Shown here piece by piece: positions 6,932-59,617 of a stretch of 64,000 nucleotides of DNA. Both the position numbers and the translations under genes were made by a program. Every line of letters starts with the position of its first letter. The stretch's first letter is position 1. The stretch lies in contig NZ_CP011454.1 in assembly GCF_000695095.2 (NCBI RefSeq), positions 4,464,001 to 4,528,000 on the forward strand, written 5' to 3'. The notes beneath the pieces were generated by a model. That model did no database searches and was not told the DNA's origin. It saw only the letters and a list, made by a program, of their open reading frames with translations. This stretch comes from Gemmatimonas phototrophica. GTDB taxonomy: Bacteria > Gemmatimonadota > Gemmatimonadetes > Gemmatimonadales > Gemmatimonadaceae.

Positions 6932-9691
6932 ATGTCCATGAATAGTTTCACCCCCCGCACCTTGCAGCGGGTACTCCTCGTCGTAACGGTTGTCGCCGGT
7001 ACCGCGACGGCCCACGCTCAGGTGCGCCCCGACTCGGTGGCGCGTGACTCGGTCAGCAAAGCGCGCCCCTTGCTCGACTCGGTGCGCGTGACCGCCAACA
7101 AGCCCCGCGCGTTGCTCGATCAGCGGGCAGCGGGACTGGGCGGAGCCATTGAGGCACGGGAGCTCACCGCGCTGCCAACGGACGCGCGCGACCCCATCAG
7201 CCTCCTGTACAACATTCCCGGCATTACCCAGGCAACCGGCTTCTTTGGCGATGCCCCGCGCCTTTCCTTTAATGGCGGCAATGCCCTCTACTCGCAGTAC
7301 CTGCTGGATGGGCTCGACAATAACGAAGGGTTCCTCGGTGGGCCGCGCGTGGAGGTGCCGCTGGGCGCCATTGCCCGAATGGACGCCCTGGTAAACGGGT
7401 ACACGGCGGAGTTTGGCCGGAGCCCCGACGGCGTGGTCAATGTGACATCACTCCCCGGCAGCAGTACGCGGGGCGGCGACGTGTTCCTCTACCAGCGGCC
7501 CGGTCGTCCCCTCGACGCCCGCCTTCCCGTGACCTTTGGCGCCGTTCCGCAGGCGCTCAATCGTCGACAGGAAGGCTTTGAGCGGCTGCAAGCTGGTGGC
7601 TCCTACCGCACCGCTGCGCACAATGGGCGCACCCTGGCCGCCACGGCGCTGGAGTACACCAACGAGCAGGAAGACCGGATCGGCTCCACCGCGCTCGCGC
7701 AATTTCTGGGCACCGAACGTCGCCAGACAGTAAAGGGCTATCTGCGACTCGATCGCGGCTGGTCGCCAACACAAACCACCACGCTGCGCTTTGCCGGCAG
7801 TGGCGTGGATCGGGCCGGCAACGGCAGTGGGGTCGTTACGCCGGAGGCTGACATCAGCACCCGACGCATCGGCACGCTCAGCGCCCTGACCCATCGCTCC
7901 ACGCTGTCTGGCGGACGGGCGTCGAACACGGCGTCGTTCCAGTACGGCACCTACCACTGGTACTTTCCCCCGGTCCGCAGCGATTTCTCGCAGCCGCAGG
8001 TCACCATTGTCGCGCCTGACCGCGCTGTGCAGGCGGTGGTTGGATCCAGCAACTTCGTCTTCGACGAACGCGAAAAGCAGTTCCAGCTGCGCGACCTGTT
8101 TGAGCGTGAGCTCTCGACCACGCACCGGCTGCGCGCCGGTGCCGATGTCATTCACGCCCGGTTTGCATTGGCCGCCGCGAGTACGAATCCGAATGGCTCG
8201 TACACCGTGGTCAACGAGGGCAACATCAATGCGCCCGTCGGTCGCACACTCTCCATTCGCGATGTGCCCTCAACGGCCCGTGTGCTGTCGTATACCATTG
8301 ACGCGCGTCCGCAGCAAGTGAATCTCACGCAGACGACGTATGGCGCATTCCTTGAAGACGTGTGGACGCCAACCTCACGCGTGCGTCTTACGACCGGGCT
8401 GCGCTGGGACTACGACGACCTCACGTCGCGGGGCGAGAGTGCTCCCGATCTCGACAACATTCAGCCGCGAGTCTCGGCCACGTGGCTGCGGAGCGCGCGC
8501 GATGTGGTGCGGGCCAGCGTTGGTCGCTATGCCGGGCGCTTCCCGTATGCCATCTACTCCGATGCCATTCAGCTGGGCGCCGCCGGAAATGCCGTACTCA
8601 CGTACGAAGGCACGTCGGCCCCGACGTTTGGGGCGGGCAAGTTGCCCTCGCAGATTGATGCGTCGGAAATTCAATCGGTGCCGCGCGAAGTCTTCCGGAC
8701 CTTTGCCCTGGGCCTTGAACAACCCATGAGCTGGCAGTCCACGGTCGGTTATCAGCGCATCATTGGCAGCCGCTGGTCGGTGAGCGCCGATGTGATCTGG
8801 AGCGAGACGCGCAATCTGCCCTGGCTTGCCGACCTCAATCCCATTGGTACACGTCTCACACCGGGCGATACCACACCTGTCGTCTGTGCCAGTGCCTTCA
8901 GCTGCCCCGGCGATGCGAGTCGGCCCGCGTCGCCTGCAGCCACCGGGTTTCGGCGCGTAAGTACCGCGCAGTCGGGTGGGGAGGCACGTTATCGAGCGCT
9001 CTACGTTGCCGTGCGACGGGCCCTCTCCGACCGCTGGACGGTCGATGGCAACTGGGTATGGTCGCGCGCCGAGAACAATACCGAAGACATCAACTTCTCC
9101 GCCACGCAGGGAAACTGCTTCTCGCGCAATCAGATCGACGCGGTGACCGGCGCGGCCTGCACGAGCAACGAATGGGCCGACGCCAACAACGATCGTCGAC
9201 ACCGCGTGACCGTGCGCACCACCATTGCGCCACACCGCAGCGTGTCGTTCGGCGTTGTGGCCGACGCGCAAACCGGCGTCCCCGTCAATCGCCTGGCCGG
9301 AAGTGTTGATGCCAACGGCAGCATCACGCGATTCGATCTGCTGGGCAGCGGTCCCATCCGCGGCAATGGCTTCATTGGCAACGGTGATCGCTTTCCCGGT
9401 GTGGCCCGCAACGCGGAGCGGTTGCCGGGGAGCGTGACGCTGGGATTGAGCACCATCGTGCGACCGTTACGCTCGCGAGCGCCCGGACTCGAGGCGCGTC
9501 TCGATATCTTCAACGCCCTCAACTCGCTCGTGTGGGGCGGCTACGCGAACGGCACAGGTGGTGGTGGCAGCCGCACACAGTTTGGCCGGCCGGGCAGTCC
9601 CATCAACCTGTACGCCGCGGCGCCACCACGACAGTTTCAGCTGTCGCTGCGCTACGCATTTGGCAGCAGCACCAGCACGCTCACTCCCTGA
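6932..9691 (+). CDS. TonB-dependent outer membrane receptor
   Basis: This is a protein of 919 residues (917 if the ATG at 6938 is used). A signal peptide ends at AHAQ (about residue 30). A plug domain follows, with NIPGITQATGFFGDAPRLSFNGG-type residues, then LLDGLDNN and PLGAIARMDALVNGYTAEFG. The rest is a long beta-barrel of alternating aromatic strands that ends in LSLRYAF near the C-terminus. The conserved VNVTS strand at the end of the plug is present. It should import a ligand across the outer membrane with TonB energy; the ligand is unknown. It is only 9 bases upstream of the phosphatidyltransferase gene and probably heads the six-gene run to 13527. Confidence 0.85.
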   Translation: MSMNSFTPRTLQRVLLVVTVVAGTATAHAQVRPDSVARDSVSKARPLLDSVRVTANKPRALLDQRAAGLGGAIEARELTALPTDARDPISLLYNIPGITQATGFFGDAPRLSFNGGNALYSQYLLDGLDNNEGFLGGPRVEVPLGAIARMDALVNGYTAEFGRSPDGVVNVTSLPGSSTRGGDVFLYQRPGRPLDARLPVTFGAVPQALNRRQEGFERLQAGGSYRTAAHNGRTLAATALEYTNEQEDRIGSTALAQFLGTERRQTVKGYLRLDRGWSPTQTTTLRFAGSGVDRAGNGSGVVTPEADISTRRIGTLSALTHRSTLSGGRASNTASFQYGTYHWYFPPVRSDFSQPQVTIVAPDRAVQAVVGSSNFVFDEREKQFQLRDLFERELSTTHRLRAGADVIHARFALAAASTNPNGSYTVVNEGNINAPVGRTLSIRDVPSTARVLSYTIDARPQQVNLTQTTYGAFLEDVWTPTSRVRLTTGLRWDYDDLTSRGESAPDLDNIQPRVSATWLRSARDVVRASVGRYAGRFPYAIYSDAIQLGAAGNAVLTYEGTSAPTFGAGKLPSQIDASEIQSVPREVFRTFALGLEQPMSWQSTVGYQRIIGSRWSVSADVIWSETRNLPWLADLNPIGTRLTPGDTTPVVCASAFSCPGDASRPASPAATGFRRVSTAQSGGEARYRALYVAVRRALSDRWTVDGNWVWSRAENNTEDINFSATQGNCFSRNQIDAVTGAACTSNEWADANNDRRHRVTVRTTIAPHRSVSFGVVADAQTGVPVNRLAGSVDANGSITRFDLLGSGPIRGNGFIGNGDRFPGVARNAERLPGSVTLGLSTIVRPLRSRAPGLEARLDIFNALNSLVWGGYANGTGGGGSRTQFGRPGSPINLYAAAPPRQFQLSLRYAFGSSTSTLTP

Positions 9692-51007: not shown

Positions 51008-54000
51008 ATGACCCGACTTACCCGCGGACTCCACGAGCGACTCGTCACACGTCTGTTGGAGCGCGACCTTGAGACACTCGAGTCCCATCTGAGTGCAGAC
51101 CGTACCGCTCTACGCGACGCCGACGCGGCCGATCGGCTAGCCCTCCACCTGTCGCGGGTCGTAGAGCGCGCCATCGATACGCTCCCCGAGAAAGAGCGGG
51201 CCGCCCTCGGCGCCGATCTTACGCGCCGCCTCATTGCGGAGCTGTCACGAGAAGGTGCACTGGTCGAGTTCGCCGGCGAAGAGCCTCTCACTCCGCCCGA
51301 GTCGCTGCGCGCAATCAACGCCGCGCTGCCTGATGGGCGTCCCGAGCAGATCCCGCAGCCACTCATCCCACTGCTTGATACCACGTTGCTCACCAATGCT
51401 CCGGGTGAGCCGAATGTGGGGCATCAGTTGCTCGCCGAAGTGGCGTCCGCCGATCGCATTGACCTCGTGATGGCGTTCATTCGCCGTACGGGGGTGCGGC
51501 CGCTGCGCGAGGTGCTCAAACGGCACGTCGAGGCGGGACGGGGTCTACGCGTGCTGACCACGGTCTATACCGGTTCCACAGAGGCCGATGCGCTCGAGAT
51601 GCTGCAGGACCTTGGGGCGGATGTGCGCGTGTCGTACGACACCACCGGCACCCGTTTGCACGCCAAGGCGTGGCTGTTTCACCGGGAGAGCGGCTTCTCC
51701 ACGGCGTATGTGGGGTCGTCCAACCTCACGCACAGCGCGCAGGTGAGCGGGCTCGAATGGAACGTGCGGGTCTCCGGGGCCCGAAACCGTGGGGTGATTG
51801 AGAAACTGTCGGCGGTGTTCGAGAGCTACTGGCAGCAGCCAGACTTTGAGCCGTACGACCGGGCGCGGTTCGATAGTGCGACGAACCACGAGCGCCCTGC
51901 TCTCACGCTGCACCTCCCGCCCACAGAGATCCGACTCGAACCCTTCCAGGAGCGTCTGCTAGAGCAGATCGCCCTCGCTCGTGAGGAAGGCCGCCACCGC
52001 AACTTGCTCGTTTCGGCTACTGGTACGGGCAAGACCGTGATGGCGGCTGTGGACTTCGCGCGTCTCCGAGCCCGCCTGCCTCGAGCGCGCCTGCTGTTCA
52101 TCGCCCACCGCGACGAGATTCTGTCGCAAGCGCAGGCCACGTTCGCTCATGCTCTACGGGATCCATCGTTCGGCGAGCGGTGGGTGAGCGGCGAACGTCC
52201 CAGTCGGTGGGAGCATGTGTTCGCGTCTATCCAGTCGCTGAATACGAACAGTCTTGAGCAGCTGGACCCAGCGCACTTTGATGTGGTAATTGTGGACGAG
52301 TTCCACCACGCCGCGGCGTCGAGTTACGAGCGTGTGCTGGCGCGAATTCAACCGCAGCAGTTACTAGGGCTTACGGCCACTCCTGAGCGAAGCGACGGGC
52401 TGTCCATTCTGCACTGGTTCGACAATCGAATATCCGCTGAGCTACGGCTATGGGATGCCATTGATCAGCACCGACTGGTGCCGTTTTCGTACTTCGGAGT
52501 CACCGACTCACTTAATCTCACCGACATTCCGTGGACGCGCGGTCGAGGATACGACACGACGGCACTGACTGACGTGATTACCAGCACCGACGTGTGGGCG
52601 CGGCAGGTGCTTAAGCAGTGTGCGGAGTACCTCGGCCCGCTCAACAAGGTCCGGGCGCTGGGATTCTGTGTGAGCGTGCAGCACGCGCACTACATGGCGC
52701 GGATTTTCGCCGAGCACGGCGTGTCGGCACGCGCCGTTGACGGTACTACACCGGCGGCCGAGCGAGAGGAGGCGCTGCGGGCGCTTGCCAACGGCACCGT
52801 GAACGTGGTGTTCTCGGTGGACCTGTTCAACGAAGGCGTGGACGTACCAACCGTTGATACGCTGCTCATGCTGCGACCCACCGACAGTCCGGTGCTGTTC
52901 GTACAGCAGCTGGGGCGCGGGCTGCGCAAGGCGATAGGCAAGTCGCTGTGTACGGTGCTCGACTTCGTGGGTCAGCACCGCCGTGAGTTTCGCTTCGACC
53001 ATCGACTGGGAGCACTGCTCGGCGGGAGCCGTAAGCACATCAAGCAGCAGGTTGAGCTTGGCTTTCCGTTTCTTCCAGCCGGGTGCCAGATGCAGCTCGA
53101 GCCCGTGGCGAAAGAGCGTATACTGGCAAGTATCAGTCAGAGCATGCCGACACGTCGCGCCGAGCGGGCGCGTGAGCTGGCAGCGCTGGCCGCGCAGCGT
53201 CCGGACATTACGCTGGGTGAGTTTCTCGAGGAGATGGGCCTCGAACTCGAGGAGTTCTACGCCAGCCCGAGTGACTCATGGACCGGGCTCCGCGTGGCTG
53301 CTGGACTGCCCATTGGTGAGCCGGGGCCGCAGGAAAATGCGTTGCGCAGAGCTATGGGTCGACTACTGCACGTGGACGATCACGAACGACTCGATGCATG
53401 GCGTCGCTGGCTGAGTGCCCCCGATTCGGGCGATGTGGAGGCCGCCACACGTGCTGCCTGTCTGGTACGTATGCTGCTCGCGCAGGTACTGGAAAGCGTA
53501 GCGGATGATGCGATGTCGTTCGCCGCCGGCGCTCAGCTGTTGCGCGATCACCCAGCCGTTTGCGCTGAGATCGGAGAGCTATGCGATGTACTGGCGCAGC
53601 GCGTAGCTCACCTGTCGGTGCCACTGGATGTCTTTACCGAGGTGCCGCTGCGGGTTCACGCCCGATATACCCGCCGGGAGATTCTAGTGGCCAGCGGCGA
53701 GAGCACCGACGTGAAGGGCAGCACCTGGCGGGAAGGCGTTCGTTATGCGGATCACCTGCCGGCTGACCTGTTTGCCTTCACCCTCGACAAAACCGCCGGA
53801 CAGTTCTCCCCCACGACGCGCTACCGCGACTACGCGATCAGCCGCGAGCTCATTCACTGGGAGAGCCAGTCTACCACGCGCGCTGCAAGCCCCACGGGCC
53901 TTCGGTATCAGCAGCATGTGGAGCGTGGCAGCCACGTATGGTTGTTCGCGCGGCTCAACTCCGAAGAACGCGCATTCACGTTTCTCGGCCCGGCGTCCTA

Positions 54001-54100
54001 TGTGTCTCACGCCGGCGAGGCGCCGATGGGGATTACCTGGCGTCTGCAGCACTCGTTGCCTGGAGACTTGTTTCAGGCGTTCGCGGCGGCGGTGGCATAG
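51008..54100 (+). CDS. PLD nuclease-SF2 helicase-DUF3427 protein (SauUSI-like type IV restriction enzyme)
   Basis: This is a single 1030-residue protein. After a helical N-terminal region, a phospholipase-D-type nuclease domain shows H218-x-K220 in RLHAKAWLFH and a YVGSSNLT segment about 20 residues later. An SF2 helicase core follows: Walker A SATGTGKT (about 337-344), DEFHH at 430-434, LGLTATPERSDG, and motifs V-VI in NVVFSVDLFNEGVDVP and VQQLGRGLRK. The last 350 residues match DUF3427. The same order is known in Staphylococcus aureus SauUSI, which cuts modified-cytosine DNA with ATP. Standalone type IV restriction of foreign methylated DNA is therefore the best guess. No methyltransferase is adjacent, as expected for this type. 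Confidence 0.78.
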   Translation: MTRLTRGLHERLVTRLLERDLETLESHLSADRTALRDADAADRLALHLSRVVERAIDTLPEKERAALGADLTRRLIAELSREGALVEFAGEEPLTPPESLRAINAALPDGRPEQIPQPLIPLLDTTLLTNAPGEPNVGHQLLAEVASADRIDLVMAFIRRTGVRPLREVLKRHVEAGRGLRVLTTVYTGSTEADALEMLQDLGADVRVSYDTTGTRLHAKAWLFHRESGFSTAYVGSSNLTHSAQVSGLEWNVRVSGARNRGVIEKLSAVFESYWQQPDFEPYDRARFDSATNHERPALTLHLPPTEIRLEPFQERLLEQIALAREEGRHRNLLVSATGTGKTVMAAVDFARLRARLPRARLLFIAHRDEILSQAQATFAHALRDPSFGERWVSGERPSRWEHVFASIQSLNTNSLEQLDPAHFDVVIVDEFHHAAASSYERVLARIQPQQLLGLTATPERSDGLSILHWFDNRISAELRLWDAIDQHRLVPFSYFGVTDSLNLTDIPWTRGRGYDTTALTDVITSTDVWARQVLKQCAEYLGPLNKVRALGFCVSVQHAHYMARIFAEHGVSARAVDGTTPAAEREEALRALANGTVNVVFSVDLFNEGVDVPTVDTLLMLRPTDSPVLFVQQLGRGLRKAIGKSLCTVLDFVGQHRREFRFDHRLGALLGGSRKHIKQQVELGFPFLPAGCQMQLEPVAKERILASISQSMPTRRAERARELAALAAQRPDITLGEFLEEMGLELEEFYASPSDSWTGLRVAAGLPIGEPGPQENALRRAMGRLLHVDDHERLDAWRRWLSAPDSGDVEAATRAACLVRMLLAQVLESVADDAMSFAAGAQLLRDHPAVCAEIGELCDVLAQRVAHLSVPLDVFTEVPLRVHARYTRREILVASGESTDVKGSTWREGVRYADHLPADLFAFTLDKTAGQFSPTTRYRDYAISRELIHWESQSTTRAASPTGLRYQQHVERGSHVWLFARLNSEERAFTFLGPASYVSHAGEAPMGITWRLQHSLPGDLFQAFAAAVA

Positions 54101-54198
54101 CGGGACCATTGCCGTTTGTGGTCAGATGACTCGTTCCATTTACGCGGGCTTCTTTAGCGGGCGATCAGATAAATGCGAGCGCAGCGAGCTACCAAGCC

Positions 54199-54226
54199 GC
54201 CCGACTGCAGCAAGTATCGTTATGCT
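54199..54226 (-). repeat. attC-like left arm (right arm lost or degenerate)
   Basis: Read on the minus strand, CATAACGATACTTGCTGCAG (54224 to 54205) matches the left arm of the attC at 54949-55070 at 17 of 20 positions, including the extra G of the inner box. No matching CGTTATG right arm occurs in the next 100 bases; GCGTAAATGG near 54138-54147 could be a decayed one. It follows the GNAT gene stop by about 80 bases. Confidence 0.5.
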
Positions 54227-54306
54227 GGCATACTGAGCACGAAGAATGTCGCATCGCGATAGTTTAGAGCGCCAACGCGGTGATCTTACGCAGAGATCTC
54301 GAGTCT

Positions 54307-54804
54307 TTAGTCGATCGGAGTGGGCGGCCCCATTCGTTTTGCGAAGATGATCTTGTCGTCGCCGACGCTGTAAAAGTCCGGCACACGGCCACACTCGACG
54401 TAGCCTCTCTTGGCGTAGAACGCTCGCGCGCGGGCAAGAGGGGGGAGCGCGCTCGTCTCAATTACTAAGACTCGACCAGCTTCGGCCATGACGGTCGCTT
54501 CCACGGCATCGAGAAGTGAATCGCCCCCGCCGCGACCGTGATCCTCTGGACGGACACCAATCCACCACAGATTCCACACGCCATCGGCGTGTGCATCCGG
54601 GGCGTAGTAGACCCACCCAGCGGGTGCGCTTTCGTCGTTGGGCGCCCAAAACTGCGCGGCATGCCCTGGCCCGAGTTCGTCAGCGTGAAGCGCGTCGAGT
54701 ACTCCCCCTAGAAGTGCACTTGCATCAGCAGGTTCAAAAAGGCCTGTCGCGCACGCGACAGAAAGCAGCGTCGGTGTATCCGAGGGACGGACAGAACGAA
54801 TCAT
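54307..54804 (-). CDS. GNAT family N-acetyltransferase in a cassette
   Basis: This is a 165-residue acetyltransferase. It opens IRSVRPSDTPTLLSVA, has the acetyl-CoA loop VRPEDHGRGGGDSLLDAVE in the middle, VLVIETSAL, then ARAFYAKRGYVECGRVPDFY, the classical C-terminal GNAT motif B. The acceptor is unknown. It could modify a small molecule, a frequent theme in integron cassettes, but no resistance subfamily can be claimed. The ATG at 54804 is used, since the alternative upstream TTG adds four residues. It lies between an attC site upstream and an attC arm downstream. A leader of about 145 bases separates it from the upstream core site. Confidence 0.78.
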   Translation of the reverse strand: MIRSVRPSDTPTLLSVACATGLFEPADASALLGGVLDALHADELGPGHAAQFWAPNDESAPAGWVYYAPDAHADGVWNLWWIGVRPEDHGRGGGDSLLDAVEATVMAEAGRVLVIETSALPPLARARAFYAKRGYVECGRVPDFYSVGDDKIIFAKRMGPPTPID

Positions 54805-54948
54805 GCGATACTCTCTCAAGCTTGATGGGCGAGGTACTCACAACTTGGAACCTGTTGGTACACGTAGCCATACAGGCCAAGAATCGTTCCTCCTCACCAA
54901 TGAGCCCTTATCCTTAACTCGCGCTTCATTGATTGGACCGTCTGATCG
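54805..54948. other. leader between attC core site and GNAT gene
   Basis: No convincing gene is seen. On the minus strand an 11-codon ATG frame starts shortly after the core site and ends at once. Frames on the plus strand run through the attC site and look spurious. The promoter of the GNAT cassette, if any, must lie here. Confidence 0.4.
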
Positions 54949-55070
54949 GCATAACGCCGCGTTCTGCTTTAAAGGCTCTCATAAATTAGCTGTGAACGAA
55001 GCAGGGCGGAGCCCTGCGCAGTTACACAGCGTACCGCCTTGCCTTTGTCTGCAGCAACGCTCGTTATGTG
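54949..55070 (-). repeat. attC-like recombination site, about 120 bases
   Basis: On the minus strand the left arm CATAACGAGCGTTGCTGC is complementary to the right arm near 54950-54967. Outer CATAACG/CGTTATG boxes match exactly and the inner GCGTTGCTGC/GCAGAACGC boxes differ by one extra G in the left arm, the hallmark extrahelical base of attC sites. A perfect 7-base hairpin GCAGGGC-GGA-GCCCTGC (55001-55017) forms the variable middle. The core reads GCGTTATGCC, one mismatch from GTTRRRY. The gene upstream stops 20 bases before it. Confidence 0.65.
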
Positions 55071-55089
55071 GCGCCCCGCGACGACCCGG

Positions 55090-55650
55090 TCACTGGCCGG
55101 GCGGCTCGTCGAGCAACAGCGCGCGCCACGTCTTGCGACGAATGGCAACTTCGACGGTCGTCACCACGCGACTGCCCTGAAGCACGGATACTCCAAGCGC
55201 CTGCGCGTCGGCACCTCGCGGCGGTCGGTCGAACAGAACATACGGCCGGCCGGGAATGTCGCAGACGTAACCGAGCGACCACGGATGCGCGCGATCATAG
55301 TCGTAGAATGGTGGATCGTGGTGATACCCATGCGCGAGGACCCATTTTGTGGACGAGTCGGGGCCGACATAGCGTCCCCACCAAAGCACGAGATAGCTCC
55401 GGCCGCCGGCAGGCGATAGTGCAAGGACGCGCCAGGCTAACAAATGCGCTTCAACCAGTGCACCGGGCGGCTTAATCGTCGGACCGCAAAACCCAAGCGG
55501 CGCCGTGAGCAGAGAACGCGAAGGCTGCCAGTCCCACGCTGGCAGGGTGTCATCAACAGCGAGCACGCTGGCGGTCTGCGCGTGGACCTGACTCGCGCTG
55601 CCGAGGTGTGATGCGCCGACGAACAACAATGCCAGAAATGTTCGAGTCAT
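55090..55650 (-). CDS. exported hypothetical protein in a cassette
   Basis: This is a 186-residue protein with a signal peptide (TRTFLALLFVGASHLGSASQ, cleaved near VHAQ). The mature part is Trp/Tyr/Pro-rich: WDWQPSRSLL, FCGPTIKPP, LVLWWGRYVGPDSS, WVLAHGYHHDPPFYDYDRAH, then a strand-rich end TTVEVAIRRKTWRALLL. I do not recognise a family. The start codon lies about 25 bases after the core of the 55668 attC site and the stop 20 bases before the next site, so the gene fills a cassette exactly. An ATG seven codons upstream is inside the core-site leader and is less likely. Confidence 0.65.
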   Translation of the reverse strand: MTRTFLALLFVGASHLGSASQVHAQTASVLAVDDTLPAWDWQPSRSLLTAPLGFCGPTIKPPGALVEAHLLAWRVLALSPAGGRSYLVLWWGRYVGPDSSTKWVLAHGYHHDPPFYDYDRAHPWSLGYVCDIPGRPYVLFDRPPRGADAQALGVSVLQGSRVVTTVEVAIRRKTWRALLLDEPPGQ

Positions 55651-55667
55651 CGAGGCTTTAGATGAAG

Positions 55668-55722
55668 CCACATAACGCCCGCTAGCATGCAGGAAACTCT
55701 TGCAAGGCGGCCGTTATATGGG
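55668..55722 (-). repeat. attC-like recombination site, about 55 bases
   Basis: On the minus strand, ATAACG and CGTTAT outer boxes and CCGC/GCGG inner boxes pair, with TGCA/TGCA in the stem and a short loop. The core at the right end reads GGCGTTATGTGG. It is shorter than the neighbouring site and at the low end of attC lengths. It ends about 25 bases before the start of the cassette gene at 55650. The stop of the 55682 ORF lies inside it. Confidence 0.55.
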
Positions 55723-55948
55723 CAATTCGCTGCAAGATAGCGGAATCATCCCTCTTCGCCGCTAACCGCACAAGTAACTGTTTCACAAGAACTTGCCACA
55801 ACGCATCGCCACGAAGTTCCAGCTGTTCTCTTGCAAGCGCTGCAAGATAAACGGAAATCGTACAGAGAGACGCGCTGGCGAGGCCGAGCCGCCGCTCGGT
55901 AATCCGAGCGCCTGCGACAACCCGCCCCACCAAACCAACGCGGCGCAC
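55682..55948 (-). CDS. possible small cassette ORF, 88 residues
   Basis: This frame begins at a GTG and ends inside the attC-like site, as many cassette genes do. The second half looks protein-like, with helical segments LCTISVYLAALAREQLELRGD and LWQVLVKQLLVRLAAK. The first 25 residues are Arg/Val/Gly-rich and may be non-coding. No family is recognised, no ribosome site is evident, and its upstream end touches the terminator hairpin of the VPS10 gene. It may be a truncated cassette. Confidence 0.3.
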   Translation of the reverse strand: MRRVGLVGRVVAGARITERRLGLASASLCTISVYLAALAREQLELRGDALWQVLVKQLLVRLAAKRDDSAILQRIAHITAALQEFPAC

Positions 55949-56007: not shown

Positions 56008-59000
56008 TCAGTTCCCCGGCGGCACCACCAGCGTCACGCCGTTCGCCGCCAGCAGCGCGCTCATCGCCCGCGCCTTGGGCATGAACGCCGCCGCCTCGGT
56101 CACCGCGGCTTCCAGCGCAGTCTTCGCCGCGGCTGCCTGCTTCACCAGCGCGTCACTCGGCGTTTCCCACACGGCCAGCATGTTGCTCTTGGCGGTGCCC
56201 ACGCGCCCCAACACGTTCGTATCTGCACCGGCGGCGCCACCACCAAAGCCACCGCCGCCACCAAACCCACCTGCAGCGGGAATGGCGCCCACACCAAACT
56301 TGGCGCGCAGTGCGTCGTAGTCCTTACGGAACGCGGCGAACTGCGTCTTCACGCTGTCCGGCAACGTGGGCGTGCTGTCCATCTTGGCCGCCGCAGTCCG
56401 CACCCCGGCTACCATAGCTGCCAACGGCGCGGCTGCGGCAGCACCCGCGTTCTGCGCCGCGTGCAGCTCCATCGCCTTGGCGTTGTACGCCACGCGCTGA
56501 TCAGTCGTGAGCGTTACCGCGGGGTCCATGACAATGGTGAGCGGCTTGCGCGCCACTTCCTTGCCATCCACCACCAGCGCCACGGCATAGCTACCCGGCA
56601 GTACCTGCGGCCCCACGTTGCCACCGCCACCAAAGCGGAACCCGCCACCACCACCCGCGCCACCAGCCGGCGCACACGGGTTCTCCGGCAGATACCCCAC
56701 CGTGGGCAACGGCTCGGGATAACCAGGAATGGCGCGCCGCGGCGCCGGCGGCTGCACACCACCACCAGCCCCGCCGGCCGGCGCAGCGGCGTTCACTTCA
56801 CGCACCGGCTCCACACGCTGGTCCCAGCACACGGTCTGCATGCCGGCCACGTTCTTTGCCGCCGGCACCGCCAACTCGCGCACCAGCGCCCCGGCCCCGT
56901 CAAACACGCGCAGCACCGGGTTCTTCACCGGCGCCTTGAAGTGCAGCTGCAGCACGGTCTCCGTGGGCGGGTTCTCACCGGTAAAGAACTGGTGCCCCCA
57001 GAACTCGTCGTTGCGATCGTCCTTGTTCTTCCACTGCAGGCTCAACCCCGGCGTGAACAGCGTCGCATCGGCCTTGAGCGCCGCCGCATACTCCTGGATG
57101 GGCTCGAGATGATCGAGAATCCACAGCGAGCGCCCGTGCGTGGCCACAATGAGCGCGTTGTCGCGCGGATGAATGGTGAGCTCGTCCACCCGCACCGTGG
57201 GGAAGTTGGCCTTGAGCCGTTTCCACTGCTGCCCACGATTCACACTCACGAAAATGCCGGTCTCCGTACCCACATACAGCACGTCGGCATTCCTGGTGTC
57301 TTCGGTGAGCGTCTTGATCACTTCACCCTGCAACCCGTTCACCAGCGACACAAACGTCGCGCCAAAGTCACGCGACATCCACACGTACGGCGCGTAGTCG
57401 TTCTGCCGGTGGTTATCCACCGTGATGTACACCGTACCCGCCTCAAACCGGCTCGGCACCACTTCACTTACAAACGCGTACCCCGCCGGAAAGCCGGGCA
57501 GGTTCTTCGTGATGTTCTGCCACGTCTTGCCATCGTCACGCGTCACGCTCACCGTGCCGTCGTCGGTGCCGGTGTAGTACACGCCCGCCTGCTTGGGGCT
57601 TTCCCCCAACGCCACAATGGCCGGCCACTGCGAAATGCCGTCGTGACGGGCAATGGTGATGTCGCTCCCCTTGAGCCCCATGGTCACGATGCTATCGCGC
57701 GAGGCGTTCTGCGTGAGGTCGGGGGAAATGGCTTCCCAGCTGTCACCACGGTCGCGCGAACGGAACACCTTGTTGGCCGCGGCCAGCAGCACACCGGGAT
57801 CGTTGGGGCTCAGCATGAGCGGCGTGTCCCAATGGAAGCGATACGCCTCACGCGGCTGCGCATTGGTCACGTTCTGCGCCGTGGGGCGAATCTGGCGCGA
57901 CTCACCGGTCACCTTGTTGCGCCGCACGATGTTGCCGTCCTGCGACTCGGTGTACACAATGCGCGAGTCACGCAGGTCGGGAATGGCCACGAAGCCGTCG
58001 CCGCCAAGAATCTGGAACCAGTCGTAGTTGAAGATGCCGCGGTTCATGTGCGACGCGCTGGGGCCACACCAGTCGTAGTTGTCCTGCATGCCGCCGCACA
58101 CGTTGTACGGGAACTCCATGTCGTAGCTCACATGGTAGAACAACCCCACCGGCAGGTTGGGCAGGAACTGCCACGTACGACTCAAATCGTACGAAACGCC
58201 AATGCCACCGTCACCACCAATGAGCACGTGGTCGGGGTTCTTCGGGTTCACCCAGATGGCGTGAATGTCGTCGTGAATGACCAGCGCGGCGTCGGTTTCC
58301 CACGAGCGGCCGCCATCGACGGTCATGTGCAACCCCACGCCGCCCATGTACACACGGTCGGGGTTCACCGGGTCCACCTTCAGGTTGCTGAAGTACATGG
58401 GGCGCGGATTGGTGCTGCTCATCTTGCTCCACGTCGCGCCGCCATCGGTGCTGCGATACACACCCGTCGCGCCGGCGTTCTGCCCGCCACGCTGTGGGGT
58501 GTTGGCCATCTCCGCCGGCGGCACCGGCGCCGCGCCACGCGCCGCCGTAGGTGCTTCCACCGTGGCATACACAATGTTGCCGCTGTTGCGATACACATCC
58601 ACCGCAATGCGTCCCAGCGAGCCGGTGGGGAAACCCGTGCCCGTCACCTTGGTCCACGTGTCGCCACCGTCGGTGCTCTTGAACAGCGCGCTGCCGGGGC
58701 CACCGCCGTTCATGCAGCAGGCCGTGCGACGGCGCTGATACATGCTGGCAAAGAGTACGCTGGGGTTGCTGGCCGAGATGGCGACATCGTTGGCGCCGGT
58801 ATCGTCGTCGCCCTTGAGCACCTGCTTCCAGGTGAGGCCACCGTCGGTGGTCTTGTACACGCCGCGATCACCGCCCGGGCCAAAGAGCGGCCCCGTAGCC
58901 GCCACCCACACGATGTTCTCGTTGGTGGGGTGCAACACAATGCGGTTGATGTGCTTGCTGTTGGGGAGTCCAACGAGCGCAAACGTTTTGCCGCCGTCGG

Positions 59001-59424
59001 TGCTCTTGTACAACCCGCCGCCCCACGAGGTGCTCTGGCGGTTGTTGCTTTCGCCGGCGCCCACCCACACCACATCGGGGTTGATCTGCGACACGGCCAC
59101 ATCGCCAATGGCAATGAGCCCCTCATTTTGAAACAACGGCGTGAAGGTGGTGCCGTTGTTCACCGTCTTCCACACGCCACCGTGCGCGGTGCCTACGTAA
59201 TAGATGGCGGGGTTGTTCTCGAACACCGCCAGGTCGGCAATACGCCCCGACATGGTGGCGGGGCCAATGCTGCGGAAGTGCAGCTTGTCGAATTCGGTGG
59301 CCACCATGGGGGCCACGGGGCCGGGCTGGCTGGCGACGTTCTTGGCGCGCTGAGCGCTAACGGCCAGCGGCAGCGCCAGCGAGAGCAGGTAGCCCTTGGC
59401 CAGGGTACGCAGGGGGAGGGACAT
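56008..59424 (-). CDS. VPS10/sortilin-type beta-propeller protein (paralogue 2)
   Basis: This is a protein of about 1138 residues. A signal peptide (TLAKGYLLSLALPLAVSAQ) is followed by FRSIGPATMSGRIADLAVF, the conserved opening of these giant propellers. Repeats carry the T-D-G-G-x-x-W signature: STDGGKTF, TTDGGLTWK, STDGGDTW, STDGGATW, TRDDGKTW. A WCGPS block and the WILDHLEPIQEY segment also occur in the paralogue at 42342. The C-terminal third has glycine-rich linkers and an alpha-helical tail. The cysteine pair in ACCMNGG is unique to this copy. The ATG at 59424 precedes the signal peptide. A long open frame on the opposite strand is an artefact of codon bias. Confidence 0.8.
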   Translation of the reverse strand: MSLPLRTLAKGYLLSLALPLAVSAQRAKNVASQPGPVAPMVATEFDKLHFRSIGPATMSGRIADLAVFENNPAIYYVGTAHGGVWKTVNNGTTFTPLFQNEGLIAIGDVAVSQINPDVVWVGAGESNNRQSTSWGGGLYKSTDGGKTFALVGLPNSKHINRIVLHPTNENIVWVAATGPLFGPGGDRGVYKTTDGGLTWKQVLKGDDDTGANDVAISASNPSVLFASMYQRRRTACCMNGGGPGSALFKSTDGGDTWTKVTGTGFPTGSLGRIAVDVYRNSGNIVYATVEAPTAARGAAPVPPAEMANTPQRGGQNAGATGVYRSTDGGATWSKMSSTNPRPMYFSNLKVDPVNPDRVYMGGVGLHMTVDGGRSWETDAALVIHDDIHAIWVNPKNPDHVLIGGDGGIGVSYDLSRTWQFLPNLPVGLFYHVSYDMEFPYNVCGGMQDNYDWCGPSASHMNRGIFNYDWFQILGGDGFVAIPDLRDSRIVYTESQDGNIVRRNKVTGESRQIRPTAQNVTNAQPREAYRFHWDTPLMLSPNDPGVLLAAANKVFRSRDRGDSWEAISPDLTQNASRDSIVTMGLKGSDITIARHDGISQWPAIVALGESPKQAGVYYTGTDDGTVSVTRDDGKTWQNITKNLPGFPAGYAFVSEVVPSRFEAGTVYITVDNHRQNDYAPYVWMSRDFGATFVSLVNGLQGEVIKTLTEDTRNADVLYVGTETGIFVSVNRGQQWKRLKANFPTVRVDELTIHPRDNALIVATHGRSLWILDHLEPIQEYAAALKADATLFTPGLSLQWKNKDDRNDEFWGHQFFTGENPPTETVLQLHFKAPVKNPVLRVFDGAGALVRELAVPAAKNVAGMQTVCWDQRVEPVREVNAAAPAGGAGGGVQPPAPRRAIPGYPEPLPTVGYLPENPCAPAGGAGGGGGFRFGGGGNVGPQVLPGSYAVALVVDGKEVARKPLTIVMDPAVTLTTDQRVAYNAKAMELHAAQNAGAAAAAPLAAMVAGVRTAAAKMDSTPTLPDSVKTQFAAFRKDYDALRAKFGVGAIPAAGGFGGGGGFGGGAAGADTNVLGRVGTAKSNMLAVWETPSDALVKQAAAAKTALEAAVTEAAAFMPKARAMSALLAANGVTLVVPPGN

Positions 59425-59617
59425 AGTCTGTGGGCGGAGGGGGACGTAAAGCGTCACCCCCATAACGTGCGCCACGGCAGAGCGTTGGGCGAGGATCAGC
59501 CCACCAAAACTCCCTACCTCTCCACCTCCCCACCTCCATCATTCAGGCACACACCCGCCTGGCGGCACAAACCCACTGGCCACGCACTATACTACAACCA
59601 CCCTCTCAGGAGACCGC

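Follow-up and report, generated by a model that had tools for sequence, protein, structure and literature searches.

The window analysed here is a 64,000-nucleotide stretch (positions 4464001-4528000) of the single 4,716,552-bp contig of the finished Gemmatimonas phototrophica chromosome (genome G000). Next to a VPS10-type gene, on its 3' side, it carries what its sequence identifies as an orphan integron platform: a copy of the integron attachment site (attI) followed by two gene cassettes, with no integrase gene (intI). We interpret this array as one part of a multi-platform integron, in which attI-headed arrays are scattered over the chromosome and one integron integrase (IntI) probably serves the functional ones in trans. 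This interpretation draws on sequence-level evidence of five kinds, namely the homology of the attI copies, the identity of the attC sites, the position and strand of the arrays, platform positions that are kept with changed cassettes, and one cassette that is found in two platforms. A first-pass annotation of the same DNA had assigned the array to integrons, an assignment that both attC model matches and attI homology bear out, and had described it as a cluster of attC sites lacking an integron integrase (CALIN) in a Gemmatimonadota chromosome; the lineage agrees with that of the relatives recovered, which belong to Gemmatimonas and the Gemmatimonadetes.

One integrase and five attI copies in one genome

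Only one protein of G000 exceeded the cut-off for IntI (4315487-4316422; TIGR02249, 380 bits). It is encoded ~202 kb from the window, and the window itself contains none, as the first-pass annotation had stated. The genome holds five attI copies, at 4315194 (next to intI), 4664929, 4679586, 4519674 (the window) and 395605, of which only the first is accompanied by intI; a core-pattern search recovered the same five places as the homology searches, and tblastn revealed no intI remnant at the orphan loci examined. When an attC covariance model was run on the genome, it returned 23 matches in five clusters, and 23 of 23 have an attI upstream of them on their own strand (five in the main array, seven at 4679586, four at 4664929, two in the window and five at 395605). 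G000 is, in other words, a single genome with several attI-headed arrays and one intI. The attI copies are of two types, which are only 52% identical across the 205-bp unit, a value close to that of shuffled sequence, and which correspond in motif order and left edge. Type I stands next to IntI in the main integron (4315194) and recurs at 4664929 and 4679586, while a search with type II found the window and 395535-395605. One 612-bp cassette is present both in the main array and in the orphan array at 395 kb, with 8 differences (~98.7% identical); the shared stretch ends exactly at attC crossovers, and both flanks and the outer attC arms differ.

We propose that attI units would have been copied without intI, as stand-alone landing sites, and that the one IntI, encoded ~202 kb from the window, would join circular cassettes by their attC to whichever attI copy is functional, so that cassettes could load at several chromosomal positions. 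In an alignment of 16 attI copies all share one left edge, which in the main integrons is the intI stop. Since no intI remnant was seen at the orphans and this left edge is common to them, the simplest reading is that copying spread the units without intI, and not that a deletion of intI left them behind. Action of IntI on the orphan attI copies in trans is the most likely mechanism, and PMC12444791 describes integrase-less arrays of integrons in general as mobilisable in trans by a functional IntI. Beyond G. phototrophica, we lean towards the view that a Gemmatimonas subclade possesses a distributed integron, with ~200-bp attI units beside conserved host genes and a single IntI, and that many "CALINs" of this subclade are live satellite platforms, loaded in trans, rather than wreckage.

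Integrons are typically described with one attI next to intI, and arrays without intI are described as degraded. A genome in which every attC array is headed by attI, four of them far from the integrase, would change how CALINs are read, and would provide a case of gene loading at several places in a chromosome by a single integrase. It also raises the question of how attI is copied without its integrase, and it offers natural sets of attI types paired with IntI variants for studying how attI is recognised, a subject poorly understood outside class 1. A literature search restricted to papers available without subscription found no published account of a second, multiple or duplicated attI, and no paper joining Gemmatimonas, integron and attC.

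Attachment sites and layout of the window array

The attC covariance model was built from 32 aligned sites, all of them from arrays of relatives and not of G000. Its stem with one extrahelical G has a covariation score of 0.363 against 0.144 in shuffles, and 0 of 500 shuffles reached 0.363; this score is biased for the seven pairs that were used in picking the sites, and unbiased for the inner pairs. Within the 64-kb window the model, of a kind that the first-pass annotation had proposed as a check, gave two high-scoring matches (sites A and B, Table 1), both on the minus strand, and in a control of ~1.04 Mb of unrelated DNA it gave one match (18.2 bits, E 0.22). An attC-bearing minus-strand array at these coordinates is far above chance. 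The third-best match in the window (9133-9201, minus strand, 20.6 bits) is GC-rich, lacks TAAC/GTTA boxes and is probably due to chance, and no strong match lies past the helicase gene. As a finder of attC sites, a genome-wide search for the CATAACG pattern was uninformative (~207 matches), and a dense CATAACG cluster at 1804942-1805192 was rejected as local GTTATGGGTTATC-type inverted repeats unrelated to attC. An Rfam scan of the region returned nothing relevant.

The first-pass annotation had listed three attC-like elements, all on the minus strand, that share CATAACG outer boxes and a TTGCTGC/GCAGAACG inner pairing with one extra G. The strand holds for both model matches and for the third element. 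The full set of features is found only in site B, which has CATAACG/CGTTATG ends and a GTT-G-CTGC / GCAG-AAC inner pairing with the extra G, folds on its minus strand into the expected stem with a bulged base, and almost matches one attC in the array of relative G001. Site A has a clear left arm, but on the right it carries TAAAGAAG as inner arm and GTAAATGG as outer box, and its fold is no better than that of shuffles (z = +0.95), so that the proposed folding check succeeds for B and fails for A. The whole 88-bp sequence of A belongs to the attC family, in the 84-94-bp class, and we consider the site partly decayed. The gene geometry was described correctly: the stop of the secreted-protein gene (55090) lies 20 bp ahead of site B, that of the GNAT gene (54307) lies 81 bp ahead of site A, and the likely ATG at 55650 is ~25 bp past the crossover at 55675/55676.

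The third element (55669-55718) has no match to the attC model and lacks the inner pairing. By homology it is an attI core rather than an attC: window positions ~55869-55674 (minus strand) can be aligned to the sequence that immediately follows the intI stop, at 73% over 205 bp (E 6e-31) in G019 and at 67% over 265 bp in G015. The unit holds a distal palindrome (TTATCTTGCAG...CTTGCAAGAGAA), whose motif recurs as a direct repeat, and its core closes with GCGTT; cassette 1 begins at this GTT. A distal palindrome, a direct repeat and a core make up the kind of layout found in attI sites such as that of class 1. A consensus scan for a cassette promoter (Pc), which covered sigma-70-like promoters, found no site of that type in the unit. 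Among all copies, the core of the window departs most, with CATGCTAGCGGG where others read CAGGCTAATAGG. Given this changed core, an attI type that is not the one beside the IntI of G000, an array of two cassettes only and a damaged last attC, the window copy is probably a decaying platform, poorly active or dead. The platform at 395605 is also of type II; because it has a clean core and carries the cassette shared with the main array, type II attI may still be used in G000.

Read on the minus strand, the array runs from the VPS10-type gene through attI, cassette 1, attC B, cassette 2 and attC A to a convergent helicase gene (Table 1). The 186-aa protein of cassette 1 matched no Pfam or NCBIfam family. 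The helicase protein (51008-54100, plus strand), made up of PLD, ResIII helicase and DUF3427 parts, is spread across many phyla with varying neighbours and is 80-86% identical in some Gemmatimonas relatives; it looks horizontally mobile. Its use as an anchor in a search for empty sites was rejected, as its neighbours are not conserved.

Table 1. Features of the array and its flanks (positions in the window)
Feature	Position	Strand	Details and basis
Orphan attI unit, type II, ~196 bp, no intI	55674..55869	-	Crossover G/TT between 55676 and 55675; attI homology search, 16-copy alignment
attI distal palindromic repeat TTTATCTTGCAGCGCTTGCAAGAGAACAGC	55822..55851	-	30/30 identical to orphan attI of G019
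attI direct-repeat motif CTATCTTGCAG (TTATCTTGCAG in other copies)	55730..55740	-	attI alignment
attI core TATAACGGCCGCCTTGCAAGAGTTTCCTGCATGCTAGCGGGCGTT, L-box part diverged from CTGCAGGCTAAT	55674..55718	-	attI alignment and core-pattern search; no attC-model match
Cassette 1, 721 bp, crossover to crossover	54955..55675	-	From attI crossover to G of attC B R' box
Cassette 1 gene, 186-aa protein with signal-peptide-like N-terminus	55090..55650	-	Profile search
attC site B, intact	54949..55069	-	Covariance model 42.7 bits, E 8e-10; fold z -4.4; near-copy in G001 array
Cassette 2, 812 bp, crossover to crossover	54143..54954	-	attC boundaries
Cassette 2 gene, 165-aa GNAT acetyltransferase	54307..54804	-	PF13508 2.8e-7, PF00583 4.3e-7
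attC site A, right arm and R' box decayed, G/TAAATGG closing the array	54138..54225	-	Covariance model 48.9 bits, E 1.2e-11; poor fold
Host flank gene upstream of attI, sortilin/VPS10-type beta-propeller protein	56008..59475	-	PF15902 8.7e-33
Flank gene past and outside the array, convergent, PLD-ResIII-helicase-DUF3427 protein	51008..54100	+	Profile search

Platform positions and cassette turnover among relatives

Apart from G001 and G002, the related genomes are draft assemblies, and among the genomes with several attI copies only G000 is a single contig. Type II attI was found at two places in G000, four in G015, three in G019 and four to five in G025 (where two contig ends are probably one place), with one weak match in G021 and none in the remaining 25 genomes of the genus; further copies of type I are present in G025, G020, G014, G008, G013 and others. 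IntI numbers one or two in a relative, or none was found. One such relative, G013, is 99% complete and has type I attI copies with attC sites (L279, L280), with no IntI at E <= 1e-60. Across 24 attI-bearing loci in eight genomes, 51 of 54 attC matches lie downstream on the attI strand, three lie upstream on the same strand, and none is on the opposite strand. In G000 and its relatives intI is oriented like the cassettes, attI follows its stop and the array extends from its 3' side. In G001, a check for extra attI copies found a single attI of its type, and the genome has a single ~40-kb attC zone, so the multi-platform state is limited to part of the genus.

A VPS10-type gene followed by type II attI is present in G000, G015, G019 and G025; the orthologues in the latter three are 90-92% identical at the amino acid level, and the flanks of the site are 82-96% identical among the four genomes. 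None of the four has intI at this site, and no stretch of at least 250 bp of the cassettes there is common to any two of them; cassette content thus differs between relatives at the same locus, and the conservation without cassette-sized insertions or deletions that would have counted against the first-pass annotation is not seen. In the other genus members, the VPS10 orthologues checked are not closely followed by an attC. Two more G000 platforms keep their place as well: that at 4664929 is common to G000, G025, G020 and G013, and that at 4679586, behind a cystathionine-beta-synthase-like gene, is common to G000, G019, G025 and G015. By these comparisons the platforms are old, and their cassette contents change. 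At the cystathionine-beta-synthase-like gene, G015 has a type II attI (L238, contig C2) and G019, G025 and G000 have type I (L273, L275, L162); the flank of the G015 platform is 97% identical to those of G019 and G025 despite the other attI type, and its attI unit appears to have been swapped.

The VPS10 platform of G015 (L209 and L210, C1:721-747 kb) has an array of >20 kb, whereas the window holds two cassettes. This array and the main array of G015 have several stretches of cassettes in common (98-100% identical), among them ones of 678, 746 and ~1800 bp at 99-100% identity, with single cassettes at different positions in the two. At four loci an insertion element starting with GAAC(T/C)AAACCGC lies directly behind the attI GTT (L153, the main array of G015; L209, its VPS10 platform; L237, its 703k locus; and L160 in G005), and three of the four have a tyrosine recombinase gene close behind that is ~35% identical to IntI. 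This IntI-like recombinase may target attI.

Competing explanations and comparison with known systems

Several observations weigh against a multi-platform integron served in trans. The attI of the window is of type II, whose cognate IntI is 73% identical to that of G000, and the IntI of G000 stands beside type I; as the types differ, this enzyme may not recognise the window attI. The core of the window attI and its last attC look degraded, and the two cassette genes of the window are absent from every other array compared. Homologous recombination between copies of attC or of attI could account for the shared cassettes, as could two separate captures from outside. Finally, most relatives with several copies are drafts, and some attC clusters in relatives, for example those of G015 on C5 and at C2:198-205k, were not matched to an attI, because attI types of other sequence cannot be searched for.

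Among the alternatives, the one that fares best, which we still regard as unlikely, is that the orphan arrays are relics of complete integron copies, loaded before their intI was deleted. It would account for the degraded look of the window copy, and the presence of both attI types in G000 hints at two or more integron lineages. Against it stand the lack of any intI remnant at the orphan loci examined and the common left edge at which every orphan unit begins. The VPS10 site also lacks intI in four species with unrelated cassettes in each, which implies that turnover continued after intI was absent there. We hold it somewhat more doubtful that the platforms are real and their cassettes move only by homologous recombination among repeated attI, attC and insertion sequences, without IntI in trans. 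Gene conversion would fit the case of G015, where the main and VPS10 platforms have the same sequence over attI and on to the end of a ~2.4-kb insertion element; however, the cassette shared within G000 stops at attC crossovers between differing outer arms, and in G015 single cassettes recur at differing places in its two arrays.

A third possibility, which we consider very improbable, is a plain CALIN whose cassettes were inserted off target, at an attG site that is not an attI. The array has no intI, its last border is G/TAAATGG and not GTT, and insertion at attG has been reported, as cited in PMC12444791. Such an origin, suggested by the GTAAATGG end, was dropped after attI was found at the other end: a ~196-bp attI homologue heads the array, and relatives carry attI at the same place. 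Least probable of all is the transfer of a piece of the main integron over ~202 kb by chromosomal rearrangement, which would explain a shared replicon and attC family, but not an attI type that differs from the main integron's, a flank that matches orthologous positions in three other species, or the platforms of G015, which are also far apart (~274 kb on one contig).

Compared with known systems, the window array resembles sedentary chromosomal integrons in its attI repeats and core, its attC with an extrahelical base and its single-gene cassettes in one orientation. Of the parts of a complete integron it has attC sites (B intact, A partly decayed) and, by homology, an attI next to the first cassette, with no adjacent intI; it differs from sedentary integrons in this respect, and in the scattered attI copies with one intI of its genome. 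Class 1 integrons are unlike those of this genus, in which intI and the cassettes share one orientation and attI follows the intI stop. Operationally, a CALIN is defined by two or more attC sites without an integrase nearby, and tools such as IntegronFinder do not look for attI outside class 1 (PMC9024848). The label given by the first-pass annotation is thus apt in that the array has two attC sites and its nearest IntI is ~202 kb away. It misses that the array is headed by a conserved attI copy and is one of five in an intI-bearing genome, whereas the usual view of CALINs is that of degraded integrons or of off-target insertions. The CALINs of Xanthomonas away from ilvD are likewise integrase-less arrays at conserved positions, with intI possibly elsewhere in the genome, but the available text of PMC12444791 mentions no attI at those sites, and every G000 array has one. 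The Delta-attI gene cassettes of mobile integrons are similar in that pieces of attI lie away from intI; as described in the accessible portion of PMC12901181, these are attI fragments inside resistance cassettes, whereas in Gemmatimonas whole ~200-bp units stand beside host genes and head arrays.
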